A stretch of DNA of 49,355 bases from Tidjanibacter sp. GTDB taxonomy: Bacteria > Bacteroidota > Bacteroidia > Bacteroidales > Rikenellaceae. The DNA lies in contig JAGBGK010000001.1 in NCBI GenBank assembly GCA_017936005.1, positions 1 to 49,355 on the forward strand, in the 5' to 3' direction. Below are positions 1 to 49,355 of the stretch, piece after piece; position 1 is the stretch's first letter, and every line of letters begins with the position of its first letter. The notes under the pieces are model-generated. The model saw only the letters and a list, made by a program, of their open reading frames with translations, was not told the origin of the DNA and searched no databases. The position numbers and the translations under genes were made by a program.

Positions 1-192
1 AATGGAAAATGGAAAATTATTCCCTAATTTCCCTAACTTCACGGGTATTAAAAAAGATACCCGAGAAGAGGGTGGGGTACTCCAAAGTCGCAGGTATTAA
101 AAAAGATACCCGTGAAAAAGAAAGGAACAATATTTACTAATTAAGAAAAAGACGGTAGACGGTCGACGGTCGACGGTTGACGGTCGACGTCT
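1..192. repeat. Intergenic repeat mosaic (A/T 9-mers, GGGTAT hairpins, heptamers)
   Basis: No gene is visible. From left to right it holds GGAAAAT-type A/T units (1-20), CCCTAA units (20-38), two GGGTATTAAAAAAGATACCC-type hairpins (about 40-64 and 91-116) and a run of tandem GACGGTC/GACGGTT heptamers (151-190). The same modules recur in the same order at 4.8-5.2 kb and 15.7-16.1 kb, each time ending next to the long hairpin element R3. Confidence 0.85.
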
Positions 193-329
193 AAAAAACG
201 CAAAGTGCGGAGAGAATTTTGTGCCAAACGAGAAAGCGGCCCCGCAGTTTGCTTGCGCAAATGAGGAGCCGCTTATCGAAGTGCGGTGCAAAATTCACCC
301 GCAATCTGCGTTTTTTTCTGCGTTTTTTT
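193..329. repeat. R3 hairpin element, copy a, at the 3' end of ileS
   Basis: A long imperfect inverted repeat. The left arm starts AAAAAACGCAAAG and the right arm ends CTGCGTTTTTTT; the two outer arms pair over about 33 bp including GAATTTTGTGCC with GGTGCAAAATTC. The inner stem is AAGCGGC (234-240) with GCCGCTT (268-274), and the apical loop contains GCAGTTTGC and GCAAATGAGGA. An A-tract on one side and a T-tract on the other mean it can be read as an intrinsic terminator on either strand. It abuts the ileS stop codon, so a terminator or 3'-UTR role is likely (inference). Other copies are at 5171, 16077 and 37328, with a half copy at 37206. Confidence 0.85.
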
Positions 330-3300
330 TTATTTCTTGGTGAGGGCGATTACAAGGGGCTGCTCGTCAAACTCACTCTCCACCACAAAGTCACCCTTGG
401 GCTCGTCCGAGAGTACCACATCAAGAGCCAGAGTCTGCTGACCAATGAAGGCTCCATAGGCCTCAATTGCGCCCACAAGTTCCTCCTTGTGCTCAATCTC
501 CACGGTGATGCGGTCGGTAACCTCCAAGCCGCTGTCCTTACGAGCATTCTGGATGCGGTTGACAAGCTCGCGAGCAACACCCTCCTTACGCAACTCGTCG
601 GTAACGGTCACGTCCAGAGCAACGGTGAGTTTACCCTCGCTTGCCACCAACCATCCGGGCATATCCTCCGAGGTGATGTCAAAGTCGGCAGGGCTGACAA
701 CAACGCTCTCGCCTGCCACTTCGAGGGTTGTTTGGTCGGCGGCCTCGATGGCTGCAATCTGCTCCTGCGAGAAGGTAGCCACGAGTGCTGCCATAGGCTT
801 GGCCAACTTGGCATAGCGAGCGCAGAAGTTCTTGAAGTTGAGTTTGATACGCTTGGTGATGAGTCCCGTAGTGTCGGTAATCAGTTCGATATCCTTCACG
901 TTCACCTCGCCCATAACGAGTCCCTTCACGGCCTCCAACCTACGTCCCATATCGGCATCCAGCACGGGGATGATGACCTTGGTGAGTGGCTGGCGCACCT
1001 TGATACCCACCTTACGGCGGAGAGCCAGCACCATAGAGGAGCTCTTCTGTGCGAGTGCCATCATCTCTTGGAGGTCCTTGTCGATAAGGCTCTCGTCGCA
1101 CACGGGGAAGAGGTTGATGTGCACCGAACCCTCGTGGCGGCCACTCACAGCGTTCAGGTCGGCAAAGAGCCTCTCGCTGTAGAATGGTGCAAAGGGGGCC
1201 GAGAGTTGAGCCACCACCTCCAAGCAAGTGTAGAGTGTCTGGTAGGCAGCGAGTTTATCCTCGCTCATACCGCCACCCCAGAAACGCTTACGGTTGAGGC
1301 GCACATACCAGTTGGACAAGTTCTCGCCCACAAACTCCTGAATGGCCCTTGCTGCGGGCGTGGGGTCGTAGTCGGCAAGCCTCTCGCCCACAAACTTAAC
1401 CAACGAGTTGAGCTCCGAGAGAATCCAGCGGTCAATCTCGGGACGCTCCGCTACGGGCACCTCCTGCTCTGCGCCCGTGAAGCCGTCCACGTTGGCATAG
1501 AGCGAGAAGAAGCCGTATGTATTATATAAGGTACCGAAGTATTTACGCCTAACCTCGTCCACGCCGTCAACGTCGAATTTGAGGTTATCCCACGGCTGCG
1601 AGTTGCTAATCATATACCACCTTGTGGCGTCGGCGCCATATTTGTCCATCACCTCAAAGGGGTCAACGGCGTTACCGAGGCGTTTACTCATCTTGTTGCC
1701 GTTCTTGTCCAGCACAAGGCCGTTGGAGATGATGTTCTTGAATGCCACGCTGTCGAAGAGCATTGTTGCCAGCGCGTGCAAAGTGTAGAACCAACCACGT
1801 GTCTGGTCAACACCCTCGGCGATGAAGTCGGCGGGATATACTTTGAGGAACTCCTCCTTGGTCATCTCAAAGGGGAAGTGCACCTGTGCATAGGGCATTG
1901 CGCCACTGTCGAACCACACGTCAATAAGGTCGCTCTCCCTACGCATAGGCTCGCCCTTGCTCGACACGAGAATGATGTTATCCACATAGGGCCTGTGGAG
2001 GTCAACCTTGGAGTAGTTCTCCTTGGAGTAGTCGCCCACCACGAAGTCCTTGTATGGGTTTTCGGTCATCAGACCTGCCTCTACCGACTTCTCAATCTCG
2101 GCTTTGAGCTCCTCGATGGAGCCGATACACTTCATCTCGGAGTAGTCCTCGGTGGCCCACACGGGGAGTGGAGTACCCCAGAAACGACTCCTCGAAAGGT
2201 TCCAATCAACGAGGCCTTCGAGCCACTTGCCAAACCTACCCGTACCGGTCGATTCGGGCTTCCAATAGATGGTCTTGTTGAGCTCGATGAGCCTATCTTT
2301 CACAGCCGTGGTGCGAATGAACCACGAGTCCAAGGGGTAGTACAACACGGGCTTGTCGGTACGCCAGCAGTGGGGATAGTTGTGGGTGTGCTTCTCAATC
2401 TTGAATACCTTATTGTCGGCTTTCAGACCAACGGCGATATCCACATCCAACGAGGTGTCGGCGTCGGTCAATTTCTCGTCGTAGGCGTTCTTCACAAACC
2501 TACCCTGCCACTCGGCATAGGCCTCCACGTTGACATATTTGGCCACATAGTCGGCATCCAACTCCTCAATGAGGAAGAGCTTACCCTGCTTGTCGACCAT
2601 AGGCTGATTCTTGCCGGCCTTGTCAACGAGGAGCATAGGAGCAATGCCTGCCACCTTGGCCACACGGTCGTCGTCGGCACCAAAGGTGGGCGCGATGTGC
2701 ACGATACCCGTACCGTCGGTGGTGCTCACATAGTCGCCACCAATCACACGGAACGCATCGCCCGTGCCCTCCACGGGTTGCATCCAGGGGATGAGCTGCT
2801 CATAGCGTACACCCTCCAACTCGGCACCCTTCCAGGTGCGCTCCTCCACGGTGTAGGTGCCCTCCATCTTCTTGGTAAAATATGCACCCACAAGCTCCTT
2901 GGCCATAATGACGGTCTGCTTGATGCCCGTGTAGGGGTTCTCGCAGTGCACCTTCACATAGTCGATGGCGGGGCCAACGGCAAGTGCGGTGTTCGAGGGG
3001 AGAGTCCACGGAGTGGTGGTCCACGCCAAGATGTAGAGGTCGCCATCCACACCCTCAAAGAGTTTCTCACTCTCGGCATTGCGCACTACCTTGAATTGGG
3101 CCGTACAGGTGGTATCCTTCACATCACGATAGCAACCGGGCTGGTTGAGCTCGTGGTTGGAGAGGCCCGTACCTGCTGCGGGCGAGTAGGGCTGAATGGT
3201 GAAGCCCTTGTAGAGAAGTCCCTTTTTATAGAGCTCGGAGAGCATCCACCAGAGGGTTTCGATGTACTTGTTGTCGTAGGTGATGTAGGGGTCGTCCATA

Positions 3301-3737
3301 TTCACCCAGTAGCCCATCTGACGGGTGAGCTGCTCCCACTTGCCGGTGAACTCCATCACCGACTCACGACAGGTGCGGTTGTACTCCTCGATGGAGATGT
3401 TAACACCCACATCCTCCTTGCGTATGCCGAGCTTCTTCTCCACGCCGAGTTCTACGGGCAGACCGTGTGTGTCCCAACCGGCCTTGCGGTGTACGAGATA
3501 ACCGCTCTGGGTTTTGTAGCGACAGATAACATCTTTGAGCGTACGAGCCATCACGTGGTGAATGCCGGGCATACCGTTCGCCGAAGGAGGTCCCTCGTAG
3601 AATACGAATGTTGGGTGTCCTTTGCGTGTAGAAATACTCTTGTGGAAGGTGTCGTCGGCATCCCACTTTTTGAGGACTTCGAGCCCCACTTCGGGCAGAT
3701 TCAGTCCCTTGTACTCGTTGAATTTTTTACCACTCAT
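330..3737 (-). CDS. ileS: Isoleucyl-tRNA synthetase
   Basis: Charges tRNA-Ile with isoleucine in the cytoplasm (class I aminoacyl-tRNA synthetase). The HIGH-type motif GIHH is at about residues 58-61 and KMSKR at about 680, and the large editing insertion lies between them. The 1135-residue length fits the long, eukaryote-like IleRS type common in Bacteroidota. The start MSGKKFNEYKG is preferred: the frame is open for 28 more codons upstream, but these would begin at the promoter-like element (3819-3826), so they are probably untranslated leader. No T-box or Ile-rich leader peptide was seen. The stop codon directly abuts the R3 hairpin at 193-329, a likely terminator. No disruption is visible. 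Confidence 0.97.
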   Translation of the reverse strand: MSGKKFNEYKGLNLPEVGLEVLKKWDADDTFHKSISTRKGHPTFVFYEGPPSANGMPGIHHVMARTLKDVICRYKTQSGYLVHRKAGWDTHGLPVELGVEKKLGIRKEDVGVNISIEEYNRTCRESVMEFTGKWEQLTRQMGYWVNMDDPYITYDNKYIETLWWMLSELYKKGLLYKGFTIQPYSPAAGTGLSNHELNQPGCYRDVKDTTCTAQFKVVRNAESEKLFEGVDGDLYILAWTTTPWTLPSNTALAVGPAIDYVKVHCENPYTGIKQTVIMAKELVGAYFTKKMEGTYTVEERTWKGAELEGVRYEQLIPWMQPVEGTGDAFRVIGGDYVSTTDGTGIVHIAPTFGADDDRVAKVAGIAPMLLVDKAGKNQPMVDKQGKLFLIEELDADYVAKYVNVEAYAEWQGRFVKNAYDEKLTDADTSLDVDIAVGLKADNKVFKIEKHTHNYPHCWRTDKPVLYYPLDSWFIRTTAVKDRLIELNKTIYWKPESTGTGRFGKWLEGLVDWNLSRSRFWGTPLPVWATEDYSEMKCIGSIEELKAEIEKSVEAGLMTENPYKDFVVGDYSKENYSKVDLHRPYVDNIILVSSKGEPMRRESDLIDVWFDSGAMPYAQVHFPFEMTKEEFLKVYPADFIAEGVDQTRGWFYTLHALATMLFDSVAFKNIISNGLVLDKNGNKMSKRLGNAVDPFEVMDKYGADATRWYMISNSQPWDNLKFDVDGVDEVRRKYFGTLYNTYGFFSLYANVDGFTGAEQEVPVAERPEIDRWILSELNSLVKFVGERLADYDPTPAARAIQEFVGENLSNWYVRLNRKRFWGGGMSEDKLAAYQTLYTCLEVVAQLSAPFAPFYSERLFADLNAVSGRHEGSVHINLFPVCDESLIDKDLQEMMALAQKSSSMVLALRRKVGIKVRQPLTKVIIPVLDADMGRRLEAVKGLVMGEVNVKDIELITDTTGLITKRIKLNFKNFCARYAKLAKPMAALVATFSQEQIAAIEAADQTTLEVAGESVVVSPADFDITSEDMPGWLVASEGKLTVALDVTVTDELRKEGVARELVNRIQNARKDSGLEVTDRITVEIEHKEELVGAIEAYGAFIGQQTLALDVVLSDEPKGDFVVESEFDEQPLVIALTKK

Positions 3738-3818
3738 AGTATGTTTGATTATGTATTGTTCCGTTTTGATAATGTGTTCTTTGGCTTTGCATTTTTGCAC
3801 ATCTATCCAATTAACCCA

Positions 3819-3826
3819 CAAAAGTA
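3819..3826 (-). promoter_or_regulatory. Promoter -7 element for ileS
   Basis: TACTTTTG on the minus strand matches the Bacteroidota -7 consensus TAnnTTTG exactly. The expected start of transcription is about 3812-3815, giving a leader of about 75 nt to the chosen ATG. No clear TTTG -33 box is seen; the region upstream is A/T repeat. Confidence 0.5.
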
Positions 3827-3835
3827 TGAAAAAAA

Positions 3836-3956
3836 ATGGAAAATTGAAAATGGAAAATTGAAAATTACTCCTCCCCTAAGCTAGGGGAGGTGCCGTAGGC
3901 GGAGGGGTATGCAGACGGTAGACGGTTGTCGGTCGACGGTAGACGGTAGACGTTCT
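3836..3956. repeat. Intergenic repeats: A/T 9-mers, R7 double hairpin, heptamers
   Basis: GAAAATTGAAAAT units (3837-3867) are followed by an R7 double hairpin (3868-3912): CTCCCCTAAGCTAGGGGAG, then GCC-GTA-GGC, then GGAGGGGTATGC. Heptamers of the GACGGTA/GACGGTT type follow (3913-3953). They lie between the DUF6291 gene's 3' end and ileS. Confidence 0.8.
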
Positions 3957-3968
3957 CGCAGAGAACTC

Positions 3969-4842: not shown

Positions 4843-5170
4843 AGTGTCTAACGTCCAACGTCAATCGTCTAACGTCGACCGACAATTAAAATTGAGAATT
4901 GAAAATGGAAAATTATTCCCTAAACTCACTAACCTCACGGGTAACAAAAAAGCAACCCGTGAAAAAGGTGGGGCACCTCCGAGGTCTTGGGTATTAAAAA
5001 AGATACCCGAGGGCAAGAAAGAGCGGAAAGGGCACCAAAGGGCGGAAAGGGCAGAAAGAGCAGAAAGAGCAAGACATTAAGGGCCCTAAGGTCTTTAAGG
5101 CCCTTAAAAAAGACGTTGGACGTTAGACCTTAGACGTTGGACTGTTATCGGTCGACGGTCGACGGTCGAC
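4843..5170. repeat. Intergenic repeat mosaic between qmcA and the DUF6291 gene
   Basis: No gene is seen. Modules in order: heptamers in ACGTC orientation (4847-4885), A/T 9-mers (4886-4917), CCCTAAACTCACTAA, a GGGTAAC/GCAACCC hairpin (4938-4962), a GGGTATT/GATACCC hairpin (4988-5009), GCGGAAAGGGCAGAAAG units (5015-5073), an inverted repeat TTAAGGGCC/GGCCCTTAA (5078-5106), and heptamers in GACGG orientation (5111-5170). The GGGTATT hairpin plus GCAGAAAG block recurs almost unchanged at 49.26-49.36 kb. Confidence 0.85.
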
Positions 5171-5297
5171 AAAAAACTAATTATCTCGGAGGAAATTTTG
5201 TGCCAAACAAGAAAGCGGGCCCGCAGTTTACTGAACGTAAATGAGGAGCCCGCTTATCGCAGTGCGGTGCAAAATTTACCCGAGAGAATTAGTTTTT
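5171..5297. repeat. R3 hairpin element, copy b, overlapping the qmcA stop
   Basis: The outer arms are AAAAAACTAATT and AATTAGTTTTT, different from the CGCA/TGCG ends of other copies but still complementary. The middle arms AAATTTTGTGCC and GGTGCAAAATTT pair. The inner stem is AAGCGGGC (5213-5220) with GCCCGCTT (5248-5255). The apical loop GCAGTTTACT...ACGTAAATGAGGA is conserved. The right arm contains the last codons and stop of qmcA (PKN-stop), so the left arm is an inverted copy of that gene's 3' end. Probable terminator of the tnaA-qmcA operon (inference). Confidence 0.85.
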
Positions 5298-6269
5298 AGG
5301 GAACAAATCCTTAATTCCTCCCAACGAACCCAACACCGACGAAGCCTCATAGGGCATATAGACGGTCTTGCTGTCCTGACCGCTGGCCATCTCTTTGAGA
5401 GTCTCGATGTACTTCACTGCCAATAGGTAGGTTGCAGGGTCGGTCTTGGTGTTGGAGATTGCCTCGCTCACCTTGCGGATAGCCTCGCTCTCGGCGTTTG
5501 CTTGGAGCACCTTGGCCTCAGCCTCACCCTGTGCTTTGAGAATCTGTGCCTCCTTCTCGGCAGCAGCGTAGTTGATTTGCGACTGCTTCTCGCCCTCCGA
5601 TTGGAGAATGGCCGATTGTTTCTCACCCTCGGCACGCAAGATTTTGGCCCTACGCTCACGCTCGGCCTGCATCTGCTGCTCCATAGCGTTGCGCACGCTG
5701 GCAGGAGGAGTGATGTCCTGCAACTCCACACGGTTGACCTTCACGCCCCACTTATTGGTGGCCTCGTCCAACACGTTACGCAGCTTGGCGTTGATGGTAT
5801 CACGAGAGGTGAGGGTTTCGTCAAGTTCGAGTTCACCGATAACGTTACGAAGAGTGGTCTGTGTGAGTTTCTCGATAGCATTGGGGAGGTTGTTAATCTC
5901 ATAGACAGCCTTCACGGGGTCCACAATCTGGAAGTAGAGCAGTGCGTTGATGCGGGTGGTTACGTTGTCTTTGGTAATCACGTTCTGCTCGGGGAAGTCG
6001 TAGACCTGCTCACGAAGGTCAATATGCGGAGTCTCGGAGATACGCACCCACGAGTTGCCGGCCATATCCTGACGCACGCTGCGGATGCAAATCTTGCGAG
6101 GTTTTTCGAGGATGGGCCACACGATGTTGATACCCGACGAGAGGGTTTTGCAATACTTACCCAGACGCTCAATGATGAATGTTTCCGACTGCTGTACGAT
6201 GGTCAGTCCGGCCAGCACATAAAGCACCGCTACGGCGGCGATTACGGCAATTACTGTTAAAGTTCCCAT
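5289..6269 (-). CDS. qmcA: SPFH/Band 7 membrane scaffold protein (paraslipin/QmcA type)
   Basis: 326 residues. One N-terminal membrane segment (about 5-25) is followed by an SPFH/Band 7 domain (about 30-215: VQQSETFIIERLGKY, VYDFPEQNVITKDNV, ELELDETLTSRDTIN). After it comes a long Ala/Glu/Gln-rich coiled coil (about 180-270, with repeats such as AEGEKQSAILQSEGEKQSQI). These proteins form oligomeric membrane microdomain scaffolds, often beside an NfeD protein and regulating membrane proteases. That pairing is kept here, with nfeD 27 bp upstream. It is the last gene of the six-gene tnaA operon, and its last codons form one arm of the R3 hairpin. The precise role in this organism is unknown. Confidence 0.93.
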   Translation of the reverse strand: MGTLTVIAVIAAVAVLYVLAGLTIVQQSETFIIERLGKYCKTLSSGINIVWPILEKPRKICIRSVRQDMAGNSWVRISETPHIDLREQVYDFPEQNVITKDNVTTRINALLYFQIVDPVKAVYEINNLPNAIEKLTQTTLRNVIGELELDETLTSRDTINAKLRNVLDEATNKWGVKVNRVELQDITPPASVRNAMEQQMQAERERRAKILRAEGEKQSAILQSEGEKQSQINYAAAEKEAQILKAQGEAEAKVLQANAESEAIRKVSEAISNTKTDPATYLLAVKYIETLKEMASGQDSKTVYMPYEASSVLGSLGGIKDLFPKN

Positions 6270-15685: not shown

Positions 15686-16076
15686 AAGGCAGAAAGAGCA
15701 GAAAGAGCAGAAAGGGACTTTCACTAAACTCACTACGCTCCTTAAATTCCCTAAACTCACGGGTATTAAAAAAGATACCCGAGAAAAAGAAAGGGCTGAA
15801 TGGGCACCAAAGGGCGGAAAGGGCAGAAAGGGCAAAAAGAGCAGAAAGGGCAGAAAGGGAATGGAAAATTCAAAATTCTCCTTCTCCTTAAACTCCTTAA
15901 ATTCCCAAAACTCTCGGGTAACAAAAAAGCAACCCGTGAAAAAGGTGGGGCCCCTCCGAGGTCTTGGGTATTAAAAAAGATACCCGTGAAAAAAGCTGCT
16001 CCCCTAAGTTAGGGGAGGTGGTCGAAGACCGGAGGGGTATGCTGACGGTTGACGGTCGACGGTTGTCGGTCGACGT
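15686..16076. repeat. Long intergenic repeat mosaic between rluD and prmA
   Basis: No gene is seen. It contains GCAGAAAGA units (15689-15718 and 15808-15860), CTAAACTCACTACGCTCC-like units (15724-15752), GGGTAT-type hairpins (15759-15783, 15916-15940, 15966-15990), an A/T 9-mer block (15861-15879), an R7 double hairpin (15998-16042: CTCCCCTAAGTTAGGGGAG, then GGTC-GAA-GACC) and heptamers (16043-16076). R3 copy c follows directly. Confidence 0.85.
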
Positions 16077-16202
16077 AAAAAAAACGCAAAGAATTAGGCG
16101 AGTTCAAGGCGCACAAGAAAACGCCCCCGTAGTTTGCTGACGCAAATGAGGAGGGCGTTTATCGCAGTGCAACGCAGAAATCGTCAATTATCTGCGTTTT
16201 TT
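16077..16202. repeat. R3 hairpin element, copy c, overlapping the rluD 3' end
   Basis: The left arm starts AAAAAAAACGCAAAG; the right arm ends ATCTGCGTTTTTT. The inner stem AAACGCCC (16119-16126) pairs with GGGCGTTT (16153-16160), a different stem sequence from copies a, b and e. The apical loop GTAGTTTGCTGACGCAAATG is the conserved core. The right arm supplies the last five codons (KNADN) and stop of rluD. Confidence 0.85.
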
Positions 16203-17251
16203 GCATAGGAGTCCCACTTGTTAAGCACCGCCCGAAAATCCTCCGGCAACTCCGAGTCGAAATAGACCTCCTGCTTGGTGGCAGGGTGTATGAAACCCAA
16301 ACAACGAGCGTGGAGTGCGTGGCGAGGCATCAGCTCAAAGCAGTTCTCCACGAATTGTTTATACTTGCTAAATGTGGTACCCTTCAATATGCGGTCGCCA
16401 CCATAGCGTTCGTCGTTGAACAGCGGGTGGCCGATGTGTTGCATATGTACACGAATCTGGTGGGTACGGCCCGTTTCGAGTCGGCACTCTATGAGGGTAA
16501 CATAGCCATAGCGGCGCAGCACCTTATAGTGGGTTACGGCGTGTTTGCCATAGTCGCCGTCGGGGTAGGCAGCCATATTCATAGGGTCGGTCTTACTACG
16601 TCCCACGTGGGCCACCACCGTACCCTCGTCCTCCTCGAAGTTGCCCCACACAAGGGCCAGATAGCGACGGGTGATGGTGTGCTCGAAGAATTGGTGGGCA
16701 AGGAATGCGTGGGCATACTCCGTTTTGGCCACCACAAGCAAGCCCGAGGTGTTCTTGTCGATGCGGTGAACAAGGCCCGCACGGATGTCGCCACTACCCT
16801 CTTTGAACAACTCCGTACCCTGCAAGTGCCACGCAAGGGCATTCACAAGCGTACCGTCCCAGTTACCGTGGCCGGGGTGGACAACCATACCTGCACGCTT
16901 GTTGACCAACAAGAGGTGTTCGTCTTCGTAGATAATTTCGATGGGAATATCCTGCGGAATGAGCGTTGTATCTCGCTTGGGATAGGGCATCACGATAGAG
17001 ATGCGTTCCAAGGGTTTCACCTTATAGCTCGACTTCACGGGTTTACCGTCCACGAGTATGTTGCCACAATCGGCAGCGGCCTGTATGCGGCTACGGCTAC
17101 ACGCCTCCATATGGGTTGCCAGATAGCGGTCAATGCGCATCAGCGATTGTCCCTTGTCGACCGTGAGAGCAAAGTGTTCGAAGAACTCCTCCTGCTCGTC
17201 GCCCTCCTCACGTGGGGGAGGTGTGTAGTTATCAAAGGCGTGTGATTTCAT
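16184..17251 (-). CDS. rluD: RluA-family 23S rRNA pseudouridine synthase (RluD type)
   Basis: 355 residues. An S4 RNA-binding domain (about 35-90: MRIDRYLATHMEACSRSRIQ, NGKPVK-like DGKPVKSSYKV) is followed by the pseudouridine synthase domain. The catalytic Asp lies in HRIDKNTSGLLVVAKT (about residue 168), with LVWGNFEEDEG and TGRTHQIRVHMQHIGHPLFND. RluD makes pseudouridines 1911, 1915 and 1917 in helix 69; position 1915 is the one methylated by RlmH, whose gene is 8 kb away. It sits 34 bp downstream of the PASTA gene, a pairing I recall as common in Bacteroidota. The last five codons lie in the R3 repeat. Confidence 0.93.
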   Translation of the reverse strand: MKSHAFDNYTPPPREEGDEQEEFFEHFALTVDKGQSLMRIDRYLATHMEACSRSRIQAAADCGNILVDGKPVKSSYKVKPLERISIVMPYPKRDTTLIPQDIPIEIIYEDEHLLLVNKRAGMVVHPGHGNWDGTLVNALAWHLQGTELFKEGSGDIRAGLVHRIDKNTSGLLVVAKTEYAHAFLAHQFFEHTITRRYLALVWGNFEEDEGTVVAHVGRSKTDPMNMAAYPDGDYGKHAVTHYKVLRRYGYVTLIECRLETGRTHQIRVHMQHIGHPLFNDERYGGDRILKGTTFSKYKQFVENCFELMPRHALHARCLGFIHPATKQEVYFDSELPEDFRAVLNKWDSYAKNADN

Positions 17252-18149: not shown

Positions 18150-18342
18150 TTTTAAGGGCCTGCCTTTTTCACGGGTATCTTTTTTAATACCCAAGACTTC
18201 GGAGAGGCCTGCCTTTTTCACGGGTTGCTTTTTTGTTACCCGTGCCATCCGACCACTCCTCCCCTACGAAAGGGGAGCAGCTTTATTTCTTCACGGGTTA
18301 CGTTTTTGTTACCCGTGAGTTTAGGGAATATTTTTCAATTTT
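18150..18342. repeat. Intergenic repeats upstream of the PASTA gene
   Basis: Three hairpins of the GGGTAT/GGGTAAC family (about 18171-18193, 18219-18243 and 18292-18318) are separated by fragments of other modules, including CTCCCCTACGAAAGGGGAG-like 18255-18273. No promoter stood out among them. Confidence 0.75.
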
Positions 18343-24299: not shown

Positions 24300-25433
24300 A
24301 TGAATAACGAACAAAGCAATATAAAACGTCGCAAGAGCCTTTGGCCGGGATTTAAGTTGATTGATGGCTACATCACCCGCAAGTTCCTCGGCACGTTTTT
24401 CTTTGCCATTGCGCTGATTATCATCATCGTGGTGGTGTTTGATGCTGTGGAGAAGATTGACGACTTCATCGAGATGAAAGCACCCTTGGAGCGTATCATC
24501 TTCGGCTACTATGTCAACTTCATTCCCTATTTCATCAACCTCTTCTGCGGCCTTTTCACTTTCATTGCCGTAATATACTTCACCTCGCAGATGGCCGGGC
24601 GCACCGAAATTACCGCCATACAATCGGCCGGTGTTAGTTTCCGCCGCCTGCTGTGGCCATATTTTGTGTCGGCAATGGTCATCTCGGGCGTGTCGCTCTA
24701 CCTCAACTTGGAGGTCATACCCGTGGCCAACGAAAAGAGGGTGGAATTTGAGGGTAAGTATCTACGCAAAAACCGCCACCAGCAGTTTGAGCCCAACATC
24801 TACCGACAGATTGAGCCCGGCACGTTTGTCTATGTGCGTAACTTCAACGGCACATCCAATCGCGCTTCGTTTATGAGTATCGAGCGTTTTGAGGGGAGCA
24901 AGATTGTCGAGTCGTTGGAGGCTGCCGACATCCGCTACAACGAGGAGAACGGACATTGGACCGCACCAAAATATGTTACCCACCACTTTGTGGGCGAGGA
25001 CGACATCTTCGAGCGACACGAGAAGTTGGACACCCTTATCAACCTCTCCAAGATGGAGTTGGGCAAGGTGGAGAACCTCATAACCACAATGAAGATTGGC
25101 GAGCTCAACGAGTTCATCGACCAGCAGAAAGCCAAAGGCTCGGATATGATTGGTATCTTCGAGGTGGAGCGACACAAGAGGTATTCTTATCCCGCTTCGG
25201 TGTTCATCCTCACTGTCATCGGTGTATCGCTCTCGGCACGCAAGATGCGTAGCGGTACGGGCGTAAACATCGGTATTGGTGTAATCTTGTGCTTCACCTA
25301 CATTATGTTGGGCCGAGTCTTTGAGGAGATTGCCAAAGGCAGTCAGGGGTGGGTGTCGACCTTTATGGTGTGGCTCCCCAACCTCATCTTCTTCATCATT
25401 GCCGCCTACCTCTACCGTAAGGCACCAAAATAG
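24300..25433 (+). CDS. LptF/LptG family lipopolysaccharide export permease
   Basis: 377 residues. Inner-membrane permease of the LptB2FG-type transporter that extracts LPS from the inner membrane. Three membrane segments lie at the N-terminus (about 25-45, 65-90, 105-125; FFAIALIIIIVVVFDAVEKI, FIPYFINLFCGLFTFIAVIYF), a periplasmic beta-jellyroll domain lies in the middle (about 135-265) and three segments at the C-terminus (VFILTVIGVSLSARKM, GIGVILCFTYIMLGRVFEEIA, WLPNLIFFIIAAYLY). The tgt-lptF/G order is one I recall from other Bacteroidales. LptF and LptG cannot be told apart from sequence alone here. Heptamer repeats start at the stop codon. Confidence 0.92.
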   Translation: MNNEQSNIKRRKSLWPGFKLIDGYITRKFLGTFFFAIALIIIIVVVFDAVEKIDDFIEMKAPLERIIFGYYVNFIPYFINLFCGLFTFIAVIYFTSQMAGRTEITAIQSAGVSFRRLLWPYFVSAMVISGVSLYLNLEVIPVANEKRVEFEGKYLRKNRHQQFEPNIYRQIEPGTFVYVRNFNGTSNRASFMSIERFEGSKIVESLEAADIRYNEENGHWTAPKYVTHHFVGEDDIFERHEKLDTLINLSKMELGKVENLITTMKIGELNEFIDQQKAKGSDMIGIFEVERHKRYSYPASVFILTVIGVSLSARKMRSGTGVNIGIGVILCFTYIMLGRVFEEIAKGSQGWVSTFMVWLPNLIFFIIAAYLYRKAPK

Positions 25434-25530
25434 ACCGTAGACCGTCTACCGTCTACCGTCTACCGTCTACCGTCTACCGTCAACCGACGACCGACGACCG
25501 ACGACCGTCAACCGACAACCGACGACCGAC
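25433..25530. repeat. Longest heptamer array, directly after the lptF stop
   Basis: About 14 near-tandem 7-mers of types ACCGTCT, ACCGTCA and ACCGACG begin inside the stop codon's last base. The array shifts from CTACCGT to CGACCGA units along its length, suggesting local expansion. Confidence 0.9.
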
Positions 25531-25561
25531 ATTTCGATTACATCCTAAACTATAAACCCGT

Positions 25562-30695: not shown

Positions 30696-30880
30696 GAGAA
30701 TTGAAAATTACTTACCCCCTAAATTCCCTAAGGGCTTTAAGGGCAATAGGGGCAGAAAAGGAAATGAAAAAACTCTGCGCCAACGGCGCACCCTAATTTC
30801 CCATTTTCAATTTTCAATTTTCAATTTTAATTGTCGGCCGACGGTTGACGGTCGACGGTCGACGGTTGACGGTTGACGGT
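30696..30880. repeat. Repeat mosaic downstream of the PqqD-like gene, part 2
   Basis: A/T 9-mers, CCCTAAGGGCTTTAAGGGC, a TGCGCC-AAC-GGCGCA hairpin (30766-30780), more A/T units (30797-30832) and GACGGTC heptamers (30834-30880) reaching the PqqD-like stop codon. No small precursor-peptide gene was found on either strand. Confidence 0.8.
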
Positions 30881-31147
30881 TTACTCCACCAAGTCGGCTT
30901 TGGCGAGCGATGCAATCCACGCCTCGGCATCCTTCAATGCCACCTCACGCTCCACCTCATACTCGCCAACGAGCAGGTCAGCCACCTTCTCGGCATCAAA
31001 CTCCACCCCCTGCAACTGCTCCCAGAGCCACTCGCTGGTGGGGTTGAGCGAAATGATGGTTGTCATCTTCACATTCTGCTCGCCCATACGGACAATCACA
31101 CTCTCGCCCGCAATCTTGCGTACCTTGCAATTTGATTTCAGTTTCAT
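30881..31147 (-). CDS. PqqD-like peptide-binding protein (RiPP recognition element type)
   Basis: 88 residues, standard for a stand-alone PqqD. It starts with a beta-hairpin (KSNCKVRKIAGESVIVRMGEQ, about 4-24) and continues with a winged-helix-like helical part containing the PqqD signature LNPTSEWLWEQLQG (about 34-47) and DAEKVADLLVGEYEVE. PqqD-fold proteins bind the leader region of precursor peptides and deliver them to modifying enzymes. The start codon is 1 bp from the end of the S26-like gene, so translation is almost certainly coupled. No radical-SAM or cyclase partner is in the window. Confidence 0.88.
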   Translation of the reverse strand: MKLKSNCKVRKIAGESVIVRMGEQNVKMTTIISLNPTSEWLWEQLQGVEFDAEKVADLLVGEYEVEREVALKDAEAWIASLAKADLVE

Positions 31148-36951: not shown

Positions 36952-37205
36952 CTCCTCCCCTAAGGTAGGGGAGGTGCCACTTTGTGGCGGAGGGGTATGC
37001 AGACGGTAGACGGTTGACGTTAGACTAAAAAAACAGACCTCACCCGCCTTCGGCACCCTCTCCTAACTTAGGCGAGGGTCATTCATTCTCCCCTAAGTTA
37101 GGGGAGATGGTGCGCAGCACCAGAGAGGTCTGTCTGACGGTTGACGGTAGACGGTCGACGGTCGACGTTAGACGTTGGACGTTAGACCTTAGACGTTGGA
37201 CCGTT
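36952..37205. repeat. R7 double hairpins and heptamers
   Basis: R7 copies at 36952-37000 (CTCCCCTAAGGTAGGGGAG then GCCAC-TTT-GTGGC) and 37044-37131 (CTCTCCTAACTTAGGCGAG; CTCCCCTAAGTTAGGGGAG then GGTGC-GCA-GCACC), with heptamers at 37001-37026 and 37135-37203. Confidence 0.85.
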
Positions 37206-37327
37206 AAAAAAACGCAAAGTGCGAGGGGAATTTTGTGCCAAGCAAGAAGGCGAGTCCGCAGCAGCCACAGGCTGTTTTGTGTAGATGATAGGTAGTAACT
37301 CTTTCAAACGTCAGCAAGCCCCACAAC
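37206..37327. repeat. Half R3 element (copy d) joined to an inverted R8 fragment
   Basis: The left half of R3 (AAAAAAACGCAAAGTGCGAG to AGTCCGCAG, 37206-37260) stops at the apical loop. It continues into CACAGGCTGTTTTGTGTAGATG, which is the reverse complement of the inner part of the long R8 form. The remaining bases to 37327 are unassigned. Confidence 0.7.
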
Positions 37328-37455
37328 AAAAAAACGCAAAGTGTGCGGCAAATGCAAGGCACACAAGAAAACCACCCCGCAGTTTACTAAACGTAAATGA
37401 GGAGGTGGTTTATCGCAGTGTAACGCAGCAGTTGCCGTGCAATCTGCGTTTTTTT
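37328..37455. repeat. R3 hairpin element, copy e
   Basis: Outer arms AAAAAAACGCAAAG and AATCTGCGTTTTTTT; the inner stem AAACCACC (37369-37376) pairs with GGTGGTTT (37414-37421), again with its own sequence. The loop GCAGTTTACTAAACGTAAATG is conserved. Here it sits just upstream of a plus-strand gene rather than after a minus-strand one. Confidence 0.85.
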
Positions 37456-37474: not shown

Positions 37475-37551
37475 ATTCAAATAAAATACGTACCTTTACG
37501 CCCTAATGGCCACCGTGCTAAACACGGGCTAAACATTTGAAACAAATTACT

Positions 37552-38733
37552 ATGTTGATAAGACTCATACGACACATCGCAACTCTCGTGGCACTCGTGG
37601 CTCTCTCGTTGGGAGCTGCCTGCACTCCGGCATACACCCCACAGCCCAACGGCGTGTCGTTCAGCACGGGCGAAACCGTTGCGCACACCACCACACAGCA
37701 GTTCTTGTCCATCGCCTCGGAGTATGCGTGGACCATCGAAATCAACTACCTCTCACCCGAAGGCGCAGAGGGTTGGTGCTCGCTGAGCAAAACAAGCGGC
37801 GAGGGCAACGAGAATGTCATTATGTCGTTCGGAAAGAACCCCCTCAAAGAGAGCCGTTCGCTATCGTTGAGCGTTAAGTTCCCACGCGAGAGCATCGACC
37901 TCATATTCACCCAACTTGCCGAGGGAGAGAAGCCGGAGCCCGACATCACCACCACTCCCAAGTGGCTCGAACTACCCGCTTTCACTCCCGACAACGAGGA
38001 AAGAGTCTATTTTTCCAAACATATGCTCCCCTCGTCGGGCAACAAAGAGCGTAGTTTCTCGGTACTCTACGACACCGAAATCTACCACCCCTATTGGGTT
38101 GCATACCCTTTGTGCAGGGGTAACATCAGAGGTAACGGACAGAGGGTTGACGAGTGGGGTATTATGGACCCCAACATCCCCAACGACAAGCAACTCTATA
38201 TGAGTAGCTCCTACTATGGCTCCTACGACCGAGGACATATGCTCCCTTCGGCCAGCCGATTGGGCTCCGATGCAGACAACCGCCAAACCTTCTATCCGAC
38301 CAATATGAGCCCACAGCTCGCAGGCCTCAACCAGAAAAAATGGGCCTCCATTGAGGGACAGGTGCGCAATTGGGGCGAGAGTTGCGACACTCTCTATGTG
38401 GTTACGGGTGCCGTGTTCCGCACCGTGGGTGGCAACGAAAGCGTAAACACCACCTCGTGCCGTAGCGATAGTGGCAAGCAGGTATCCATCCCCAACTACT
38501 ACTACAAGGCCCTTCTCCAAAGGCGAGGTACGGGGGCAAGCAGTTCCTATCAGACCTTGGCCATATGGGTACCCCACAAGGCTGCAACAGGCAACGTTAC
38601 CAAGAGCGACCTTATAACCATCGACCGCTTGGAGGAGCTCACAGGAATTGACTTCTTCCACAACCTCGACGACACCACCGAGCAGAGGGTGGAGAGTTAC
38701 TACGACCTCACCTATTGGAGCGGAATCAATTAG
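37552..38733 (+). CDS. Secreted lipoprotein DNA/RNA non-specific endonuclease (NUC family), first copy
   Basis: 393 residues from ATG; an in-frame TTG lies 15 bp upstream but is less likely. Lipoprotein signal (LVALSLGAAC). A BACON-like domain (about 30-125: GVSFSTGETV, IFTQLAEG) precedes a beta-beta-alpha-metal NUC domain (about 150-385). The catalytic motif YDRGHMLPSASR (about 224-235) has the general-base His, and FYPTNMSPQLAGLN provides the metal-binding Asn. Such enzymes (Serratia nuclease fold) cut single- and double-stranded DNA and RNA. It lies in tandem with a second copy 72 bp downstream. The lipid anchor suggests action at the outer surface or in the periplasm. Confidence 0.9.
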   Translation: MLIRLIRHIATLVALVALSLGAACTPAYTPQPNGVSFSTGETVAHTTTQQFLSIASEYAWTIEINYLSPEGAEGWCSLSKTSGEGNENVIMSFGKNPLKESRSLSLSVKFPRESIDLIFTQLAEGEKPEPDITTTPKWLELPAFTPDNEERVYFSKHMLPSSGNKERSFSVLYDTEIYHPYWVAYPLCRGNIRGNGQRVDEWGIMDPNIPNDKQLYMSSSYYGSYDRGHMLPSASRLGSDADNRQTFYPTNMSPQLAGLNQKKWASIEGQVRNWGESCDTLYVVTGAVFRTVGGNESVNTTSCRSDSGKQVSIPNYYYKALLQRRGTGASSSYQTLAIWVPHKAATGNVTKSDLITIDRLEELTGIDFFHNLDDTTEQRVESYYDLTYWSGIN

Positions 38734-49074: not shown

Positions 49075-49355
49075 GAATTCAAAATTCAAAATTCAAAATT
49101 GAGAGCAGAAAGGGAATGTAGGGAATATAGGGAGAATAGAGAAAATTTCCCTAAACTCCCTAAACTCCCTAAACTCCCTAAAAAAAGACGGTGGGCGTTG
49201 GACGTTAGACCGTAAAAAAACGCAAAGTGCAGTGCAGAATTGAAAATGGAAAATGGAAAATGGAGGTGTGCCTACGGCACGAGTATTAAAAAAGATACCC
49301 GAGGGCAAGAAAGGGCTGAATGGGCACCAAAGGGCGGAAAGGGCAGAAAGAGCAG
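49075..49355. repeat. Intergenic repeat mosaic at the window's right end
   Basis: AATTCAAAATTCAAAATTC units, GCAGAAAGGGAATGTAGGG units, four tandem CTAAACTCC units (49144-49178), heptamers (49183-49213), an R3 left-end fragment (AAAAAAACGCAAAGTGCAG, 49214-49234), A/T 9-mers, a GTGCC-TAC-GGCAC hairpin, a GAGTATTAAAAAAGATACCC hairpin (49282-49301) and GCAGAAAG units (49303-49355). No gene is seen; the window ends inside the mosaic. Confidence 0.85.

Follow-up and report, generated by a model that had tools for sequence, protein, structure and literature searches.

A dispersed, one-stranded hairpin element at gene ends in Tidjanibacter sp. is probably a non-autonomous mobile element related to ERIC

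The stretch of DNA analysed here (the window) is a 49,355-nt contig of Tidjanibacter sp. (placed in Rikenellaceae by NCBI; JAGBGK010000001.1; C29 among the 80 contigs of a 1.97-Mb, 89% complete genome), which carries four full copies and two fragments of a long hairpin element (Table 1). All four full copies had been drawn in an earlier note made from the letters of the window, and a covariance model recovered each of them, with the correction that the first had been drawn 12 nt too long, as 193–329, its real extent being 192–317. The half copies placed by the same note at 37206 and 49214 were likewise found, the former as a left half and the latter as a left end only. Stop codons lie 12 nt before the edge of copy 1 (at 330), 10 nt inside that of copy 2 (5289) and 20 nt inside that of copy 3 (16184), while copy 4, between two plus-strand genes, has no ORF end at its site and is the sole window copy away from any stop codon. 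The copies had been said to point the same way whatever the gene direction; the common orientation stands (plus in 4 of 4 window copies), but three of the four sit at the stop codons of minus-strand genes. Copy 2 has outer arms that differ from those of the other copies (CTAATT/AATTAG), and copy 3 is of the AAGGC/AACGC middle type.

Table 1. Hairpin elements, element fragments and adjoining genes in the window.
Feature	Position	Strand	Evidence or remark
ERIC-like element copy 1	192..317 (core 241-268)	+	covariance model R1, 138.5 bits; core match
ERIC-like element copy 2	5171..5298 (core 5220-5248)	+	R1, 143.4 bits; core match
ERIC-like element copy 3	16078..16203 (core 16126-16153)	+	R1, 126.5 bits; core match
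ERIC-like element copy 4	37328..37455 (core 37376-37404)	+	R1, 116.8 bits
Left-half element fragment	37206..37261	+	cut exactly past the CCGCAG box, then CAGCCACAGGCTG hairpin
Left-end element fragment AAAAAAACGCAAAGTGC	49214..49230 (about)	+	
Class I tRNA synthetase (I/L/M/V type) with DUF5915	330..3821	-	stop codon adjoins copy 1
SPFH/Band 7 protein gene	5289..6269	-	stop codon at copy 2 edge
S4-domain pseudouridine synthase gene	16184..17251	-	stop codon within copy 3
DNA/RNA non-specific endonuclease gene	37537..38733	+	downstream of copy 4

Other repeats share the window. Heptad arrays of the GACGGTY / GTCRACC type occur at 158-190, 3914-3961, 16044-16080, 25430-25535, 30833-30894, 37136-37197 and other places, often immediately to the left of an element; others lie elsewhere, and both orientations are seen. 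Hairpins of the GGGTATTAAAAAAGATACCC type and 9-bp arrays (e.g. CCCTAAACT and AAAGGGCAG) are found at 4917-5009, 15739-15986, 18157-18325 and 49278-49354.

In what follows, the reader strand is the strand on which the earlier note drew the hairpin (the window's plus strand in all four copies), and the R strand is the opposite one. Taken from the outside inwards on the reader strand, the element begins with an A run and an outer stem leading to an internal loop, in which a left box AAGGC (or GTGCC) faces AACGC (or GGTGC). A short stem, a second loop with AAG(A) facing TATCGCA and an inner stem of 7–9 pairs follow; the apical part consists of CCGCAG facing TGAGGA, a TTTRC/GYAAA stem and the loop, and the way back ends in a T run. 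In 59 copies from the same genome the longest A run and the longest T run are each 5.6 nt on average. The first description of the inner stems, the apical motif and the asymmetric internal-loop bases is confirmed. Across copies the stems change wholesale, the boxes hardly at all. In an unfitted MAFFT alignment of 13 own-genome copies, 97.0% of cells were paired and 52 were changed on both sides, versus 14.1 after shuffling and 2–6 with the partner slid. When 55 copies were fitted to the model, 96.9% of cells were paired, 365 were double-changed versus 87.7 (shuffled) and 34–69 (slid), and 31 of 39 pairs changed on both sides with pairing retained; as the copies share ancestry, cells in these alignments are not independent, and the shuffle and slide controls leave some phylogeny in. 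The covariation claimed at the outset thus exceeds both controls in both alignments.

The fold belongs to the reader strand. Isolated helix mismatches on that strand in 201 distinct copies comprised 172 G·T versus 81 A·C and 311 A·G versus 13 C·T, raw counts that are inflated by conserved loop positions. With two paired neighbours required per side and each context counted once, G·T exceeded A·C by 52 to 17, and the unfiltered numbers beyond 34 nt from the core were 52 and 9. By RNA energies the reader strand was the more stable in 191 of the 201 copies and in 53 of 59 own-genome copies (57 of 59 by DNA energies). A gene-sense (3'-UTR) RNA, tried as the functional fold, was set aside in view of these mismatch and stability tests; the folded strand is the reader strand, as RNA or as single-stranded DNA. 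Together, the covariation, the unpaired boxes kept across phyla and the excess of G·T over A·C on the reader strand support the idea of selection on a single-stranded fold, and the retention of the core in lineages without T runs in the outer arms agrees with the suggestion that this fold is more than a terminator needs.

Covariation of this kind might instead arise from hairpin-templated repair, in which one arm is copied from the other and no selection acts on the fold, and whole arms that differ between copies and yet pair are what such copying would leave behind. The internal loops, however, stay asymmetric and conserved, and arm copying would erase a strand bias such as the 52:17 ratio of G·T to A·C. 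This asymmetry goes beyond what arm copying alone would make, and we regard templated repair as an unlikely source of the covariation.

Fourteen exact core matches were found in the genome. A covariance model built from 13 of its copies gave 90 matches at E ≤ 1, reduced to 60 working sites after opposite-strand duplicates and two weak matches on contig C77 had been dropped (one half copy, C45:28673, and one weak match on C12 were kept). The element is dispersed over these 60 sites, 55 of which pass E ≤ 1e-12 in the sequence stretches examined; it spans 127 model positions, and most of the 55 copies are 126–129 nt long. Several truncated copies stop exactly at a box, and 56 copies showed no target duplication above chance. 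Tandem pairs were seen on contigs C13 and C24 of this genome (G000), and about three elements stand in tandem, roughly 150 nt apart, at the secA 3' end of a relative (L264, in G032). Half elements were also noted ahead of a full copy (L086:3809, L093:791 and 5698, L095:7501-7755 and window 37206-37328), several of which break off exactly at the end of AAGGC, GTGCC or CCGCAG, with small hairpins (AGCGTCAGAATGACGCT, CAGCCACAGGCTG) and a repeated spacer coming next.

A covariance model search matched 14 of 30 genomes, the window's own included, at E ≤ 0.001; nine genus relatives had 14–94 matches each, opposite-strand ones counted, and four further genomes had one each. Occupancy at single places was compared at the 3' ends of dnaK and secA, where the core was present in at least 3 of 21 and at least 8 of 22 genus genomes, respectively (own genome included), by a pattern that misses variants (secA of G005 and G013) and copies seen by eye to have decayed (dnaK of G006 and G008). 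Where the native protein end was located, the core always lay 48–57 nt from the stop. The arms at one such place differ greatly between genomes, and in several relatives a plain terminator-like hairpin follows dnaK in place of the element. This comparison shows gain, loss or replacement at one place. Among the matches listed, there was no clean empty site after dnaK or secA in the genus genomes; the change was one of wholesale replacement.

The earlier note had not remarked on the position of the element relative to genes. With genes called by a custom script (in the window's genome as in genomes G005, G016 and G040), an R-strand ORF of at least 80 aa ended at -27 to +23 nt from the element edge at 53 of the 60 sites, and 31 of these 53 gene ends fell at -2 to +5 nt. 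The stop codons, some of them up to 23 nt inside the element edge, were TAA in 37 cases, TAG in 13 and TGA in 3. Seven sites were exceptions: C24:46842 and C13:1 each stand second in a tandem pair, C45:28673 is the half copy and C76:26 faces a contig edge, leaving C50:62, C29:37328 and C1:20032 as true exceptions. In G005 and G016, from whose 47 matches 34 copies were used (12 opposite-strand duplicates and L340:3797 excluded), 28 of the 34 met an R-strand gene end at -16 to +9 by hand count. Among 120 core matches on named genome contigs, 106 had enough flanking sequence; at 72 of these an R-strand ORF of at least 100 aa ended -160 to -10 nt from the core, compared with 34 reader-strand ORFs ending equally close on the other side. 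Eight neighbouring proteins were scanned and proved unrelated, including a tRNA synthetase, a band 7 protein, a pseudouridine synthase, Hsp70, SecA and RNase Y.

Orientation usually follows the direction of replication as judged by GC skew. Fourteen of 15 own-genome contigs with at least two sites bear the element in a single orientation, and in a test in which neighbours were merged and each contig's own gene ends served as the null, 13 of 14 multi-event contigs were unanimous (product of chances about 10^-5.6 for those 13). GC skew on the reader strand was negative at 54 of the 60 own sites and at 32 of 34 in G005/G016. It was negative, too, in 13 of 17 own copies whose neighbourhood codes mostly on the reader strand and, by hand count, in 13 of 13 such copies in G005/G016; copies on one stretch are not independent in these counts. 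Because the skew is negative even where the reader strand carries the coding, orientation tracks GC skew, a proxy for replication direction, beyond local gene direction. Mixed orientation was found on contig C50, along which the skew sign switches together with the orientation, and on two stretches of G005 (L330 and L338), with one positive-skew copy each. A passive cause is possible: loss may be more frequent among copies that place the more stable hairpin on the lagging-strand template. In the Flavobacteriales genome G040, from whose 25 matches the two weakest were left out, 15 of 23 copies had negative skew and none of the 23 had an R-strand gene end on its 3' side at a distance of 50 nt or less. 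As neither regularity holds there, the siting at stop codons and the orientation rule belong to the window's lineage.

Outside the genus, at least 109 stretches of the species collection contain the exact core. Those listed are mostly MAGs labelled Rikenellaceae, Alistipes, Tidjanibacter or Bacteroidaceae, with further occurrences in Cryomorpha, a MAG labelled Draconibacterium, Cytophagales, Flavobacteriales and two Zetaproteobacteria MAGs; a metagenome contig titled Borreliella garinii (L170, DYOB01000031.1), whose label is doubtful, also carries the element. A phage origin is not supported, none of the viral contigs searched having the exact core, and plasmid searches with a window copy and with a Flavobacteriales copy gave no match. 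The more general model R2 found 2 and 5 matches in the Zetaproteobacteria genomes and 73, 142 and 37 in three Bacteroidota MAGs. With strict filters, 33 of 296 genomes spread across the phylum matched at E ≤ 1e-5, 29 of the 33 in family f30. There the element is 142 bp long, with ends GGGCACCTCTA...TAGAGGTGCCC of which GGGCACCTCTA is the terminal inverted repeat, and 16 of 28 copies are flanked by a 4-bp target duplication versus 1.33 expected; the combination of terminal inverted repeats and target duplications that marks a MITE was found in f30 only. No insertion sequence with GGGCACCTCTA ends was found in six 3-kb loci.

Taken together, these observations lead us to consider it probable that the window element is a non-autonomous mobile element (a MITE) of an ERIC-containing superfamily, in a Bacteroidota branch with gene-end position and skew-linked orientation. 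Mobility is supported by the unrelated host genes, the variable occupancy after dnaK and secA, and the terminal inverted repeats and 4-bp duplications of the related family f30. The same evidence bears on the proposal that the hairpin is a host-encoded, non-mobile regulatory RNA tail selected at particular genes. Such a tail would account for the precise stop-codon position and the strong structural constraint; it is nonetheless quite unlikely, given that the eight host genes scanned (Hsp70, SecA, a tRNA synthetase and RNase Y among them) are unrelated, that occupancy varies between relatives and that the related f30 elements have 4-bp duplications.

The stable fold on one strand and its link with GC skew would also suit mobilisation as single-stranded DNA by a Y1 HUH transposase, as in elements of the REP/RAYT or IS200/IS605 type, the lead offered by the earlier note. 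REP/BIME sequences with RAYT are, like the window element, short dispersed intergenic palindromes, but size, terminal inverted repeats and duplications are unlike, and no Y1 transposase tracks the window element. In a search that covered Y1_Tnp and RVT_1, Y1_Tnp gave no match in the window's own, 89% complete genome and matched in only 1 of 20 genus genomes, G007, where the model search had found no element; RVT_1 matched in 3 of the 20 and did not track the element either. Terminal inverted repeats with 4-bp duplications, as seen in family f30, are not expected of IS200/IS605 elements. The folded strand is, moreover, the complement of the presumed lagging-strand template, and a HUH-mobilised element must be judged very unlikely. 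Comparison with Rfam gave no match on the element in the sequence searched (the window and 12 loci at the gathering threshold, one copy at E ≤ 5), the sole match among the 12 loci being an SRP RNA away from any element.

Very unlikely, too, is the reading of the copies as ordinary bidirectional intrinsic terminators that are merely alike. A-run and T-run ends and the plain terminator-like hairpin found after dnaK in several relatives speak for it, but termination has no need of invariant boxes and a 127-nt nested fold, near-identical copies stand behind unrelated genes, and the core is retained without T runs. Integron attC sites share the topology, with a folded antisense strand at the gene 3' end, as here at the stop codon, but most copies lie kilobases apart and form no closely spaced cassette array, and the conserved part is apical and the ends variable, which makes an attC-like recombination site extremely improbable.

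The superfamily assignment of the mobile element grew out of comparison with enterobacterial repeats. A blastn search with an f30 copy matched Escherichia, Salmonella, Klebsiella, Yersinia, Aeromonas and Comamonas records. Identification of the E. coli matches as ERIC was ruled out by the absence of ERIC primer sites; they constitute a separate repeat family, found at this stringency in 5,375 of 5,426 genomes at a median of 5 places per genome. Copies of this second E. coli/Salmonella family (L403, L407-L412) have the same core and are unannotated in the records examined. In E. coli, Salmonella and Yersinia (e.g. between qseE and qseG) the family's core, GAAACCGGAGCGTAC...GTACGTGAGGATTTC, matches model R3 with 38 bits, but its ends are unlike those of the window element. 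We would guess that it is BoxC, which is given as 56 bp in a listing of PMC2267715; E. coli BoxC and MITE types appear in listings of PMC2267715 and PMC3733652. True ERIC, sought by primer sequence, was present in 5,373 of 5,426 E. coli genomes, and of three loci fetched two were the same place. A phage collection held 21 records with the second family and 45 with ERIC. The large records among them come from Salmonella genomes, as contigs; the short ones carry Salmonella or Escherichia phage labels, but their phage origin is doubtful and they may represent host DNA.

ERIC itself was compared with a glocal profile, A3, of 44 non-enterobacterial copies including one from Comamonas (70 selected cores gave 51 sequences for A2, from which broken or odd copies were excluded by eye; 14 of 16 selected f30 cores entered the alignments). 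The published E. coli ERIC consensus, as given by Delihas 2007 (PMC2759123), scored 30.7 versus a mean of 1.5 for shuffles (s.d. 4.3, maximum 16.9) and 1.7 for the opposite strand; Salmonella SeRU-1 scored 25.7 and three genomic ERICs 26.5, 26.1 and 19.9. For each of these five sequences, which are one family and not five tests, none of 200 shuffles scored as high. By contrast, RU-2/YPAL and RU-3, which are likewise described as enterobacterial palindromic mobile repeats in passages of PMC2759123 and PMC2229807, matched at chance only, with 84 and 181 of 200 shuffles as high for the two RU-2/YPAL strands and 152 and 51 for those of RU-3. Covariance model R3 aligned to ERIC in register, boxes included, with 24.0, 19.7 and 16.1 bits, and model R2 gave 18.5–18.7 bits. 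Searched with R3 under strict filters, a whole E. coli record yielded seven matches at E ≤ 10. On inspection, six belonged to the second family and one was ERIC, the latter at E = 5.75 although ERIC occurs at seven places there; a sequence-only nhmmer profile missed ERIC.

The window element resembles ERIC (also IRU or RU-1) in its length of 127 bp, its long imperfect hairpin and its dispersed intergenic copies, with AAGGC left and AACGCAG right boxes and an nGGAG / TGA apical region in register; in two E. coli copies folded, the AAGGC...AACGC strand was again the more stable. It differs in belonging to another phylum, in its CCGCAG/TGAGGA apical part (CCAGGAG/TGACTGG in ERIC), in its mostly A- and T-run ends (TATACCC/GGGTATA in ERIC) and, in the window's genus, in being near-fixed at stop codons in both position and orientation. 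Enterobacterial copies occur in both orientations relative to genes, so ERIC as such has no fixed orientation. The element lacks the classical ERIC primer sites, the best matches differing at 8–9 of 22 bases (L001, L349). Table 1 of PMC2229807 gives ERIC a target-site duplication and TA ends; own-genome copies have no TATACCC-type ends, and no duplication rose above chance among 56 of them. For this reason we speak of an ERIC-like superfamily and not of ERIC in the narrow sense. Common descent of the two is likely from these alignments and scores, the match being modest in absolute terms. A passage of a 2024 review (PMC10969869) places ERIC in Enterobacteriaceae and Vibrionaceae, and among the matches listed in the full-text literature no ERIC-like element is named in Bacteroidota.

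The constant part of the element is a one-stranded fold on the reader strand, with AAGGC / AACGC boxes around an inner stem and, inside that stem, an apical stem of 5 bp flanked by CCGnAG / TGAGGA, whereas the outer arms vary by lineage. In the window's genus most copies, ending in A and T runs, look like intrinsic terminators on both strands and may act as bidirectional transcription terminators and 3'-end hairpins. At nearly all of the roughly 60 sites the element sits where a gene encoded on the G-rich, presumed leading strand has its stop codon, and the stable fold lies opposite the gene-coding strand. Copies may have been moved in trans by a putative host transposase. The 3'-end hairpin might block antisense transcription or shape mRNA decay, by analogy with Yersinia, where, in the part of PMC2229807 (2007-12-12) that concerns ERIC, orientation matters and upstream transcripts are less stable. 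Orientation could be kept by replication, through insertion into single strands or through loss of wrongly oriented copies.

More tentatively, we suggest an old superfamily spanning phyla, of which ERIC is one branch and in which the folded, one-stranded core, carried by successive MITEs with different ends, is the conserved unit; Rikenellaceae would possess a gene-end module of it at leading-strand stop codons, the stable hairpin lying on the leading-strand template or the antisense RNA. This joint reading is possible and no more firmly held than that. If true, the module would act at the meeting of transcription ends and replication, for instance by halting antisense transcription that heads for the gene or by marking the direction of the fork. 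ERIC is widely used in strain typing, and a core common to Bacteroidota, Zetaproteobacteria and a Comamonas plasmid would make its origin testable by comparison, while the conserved boxes would give a defined target for finding a protein reader. Stop-codon position, the link with GC skew and the relationship with ERIC are what this analysis adds to the earlier description, and in Rikenellaceae the position and skew-linked orientation amount to a positional rule of unusual clarity for a bacterial repeat.
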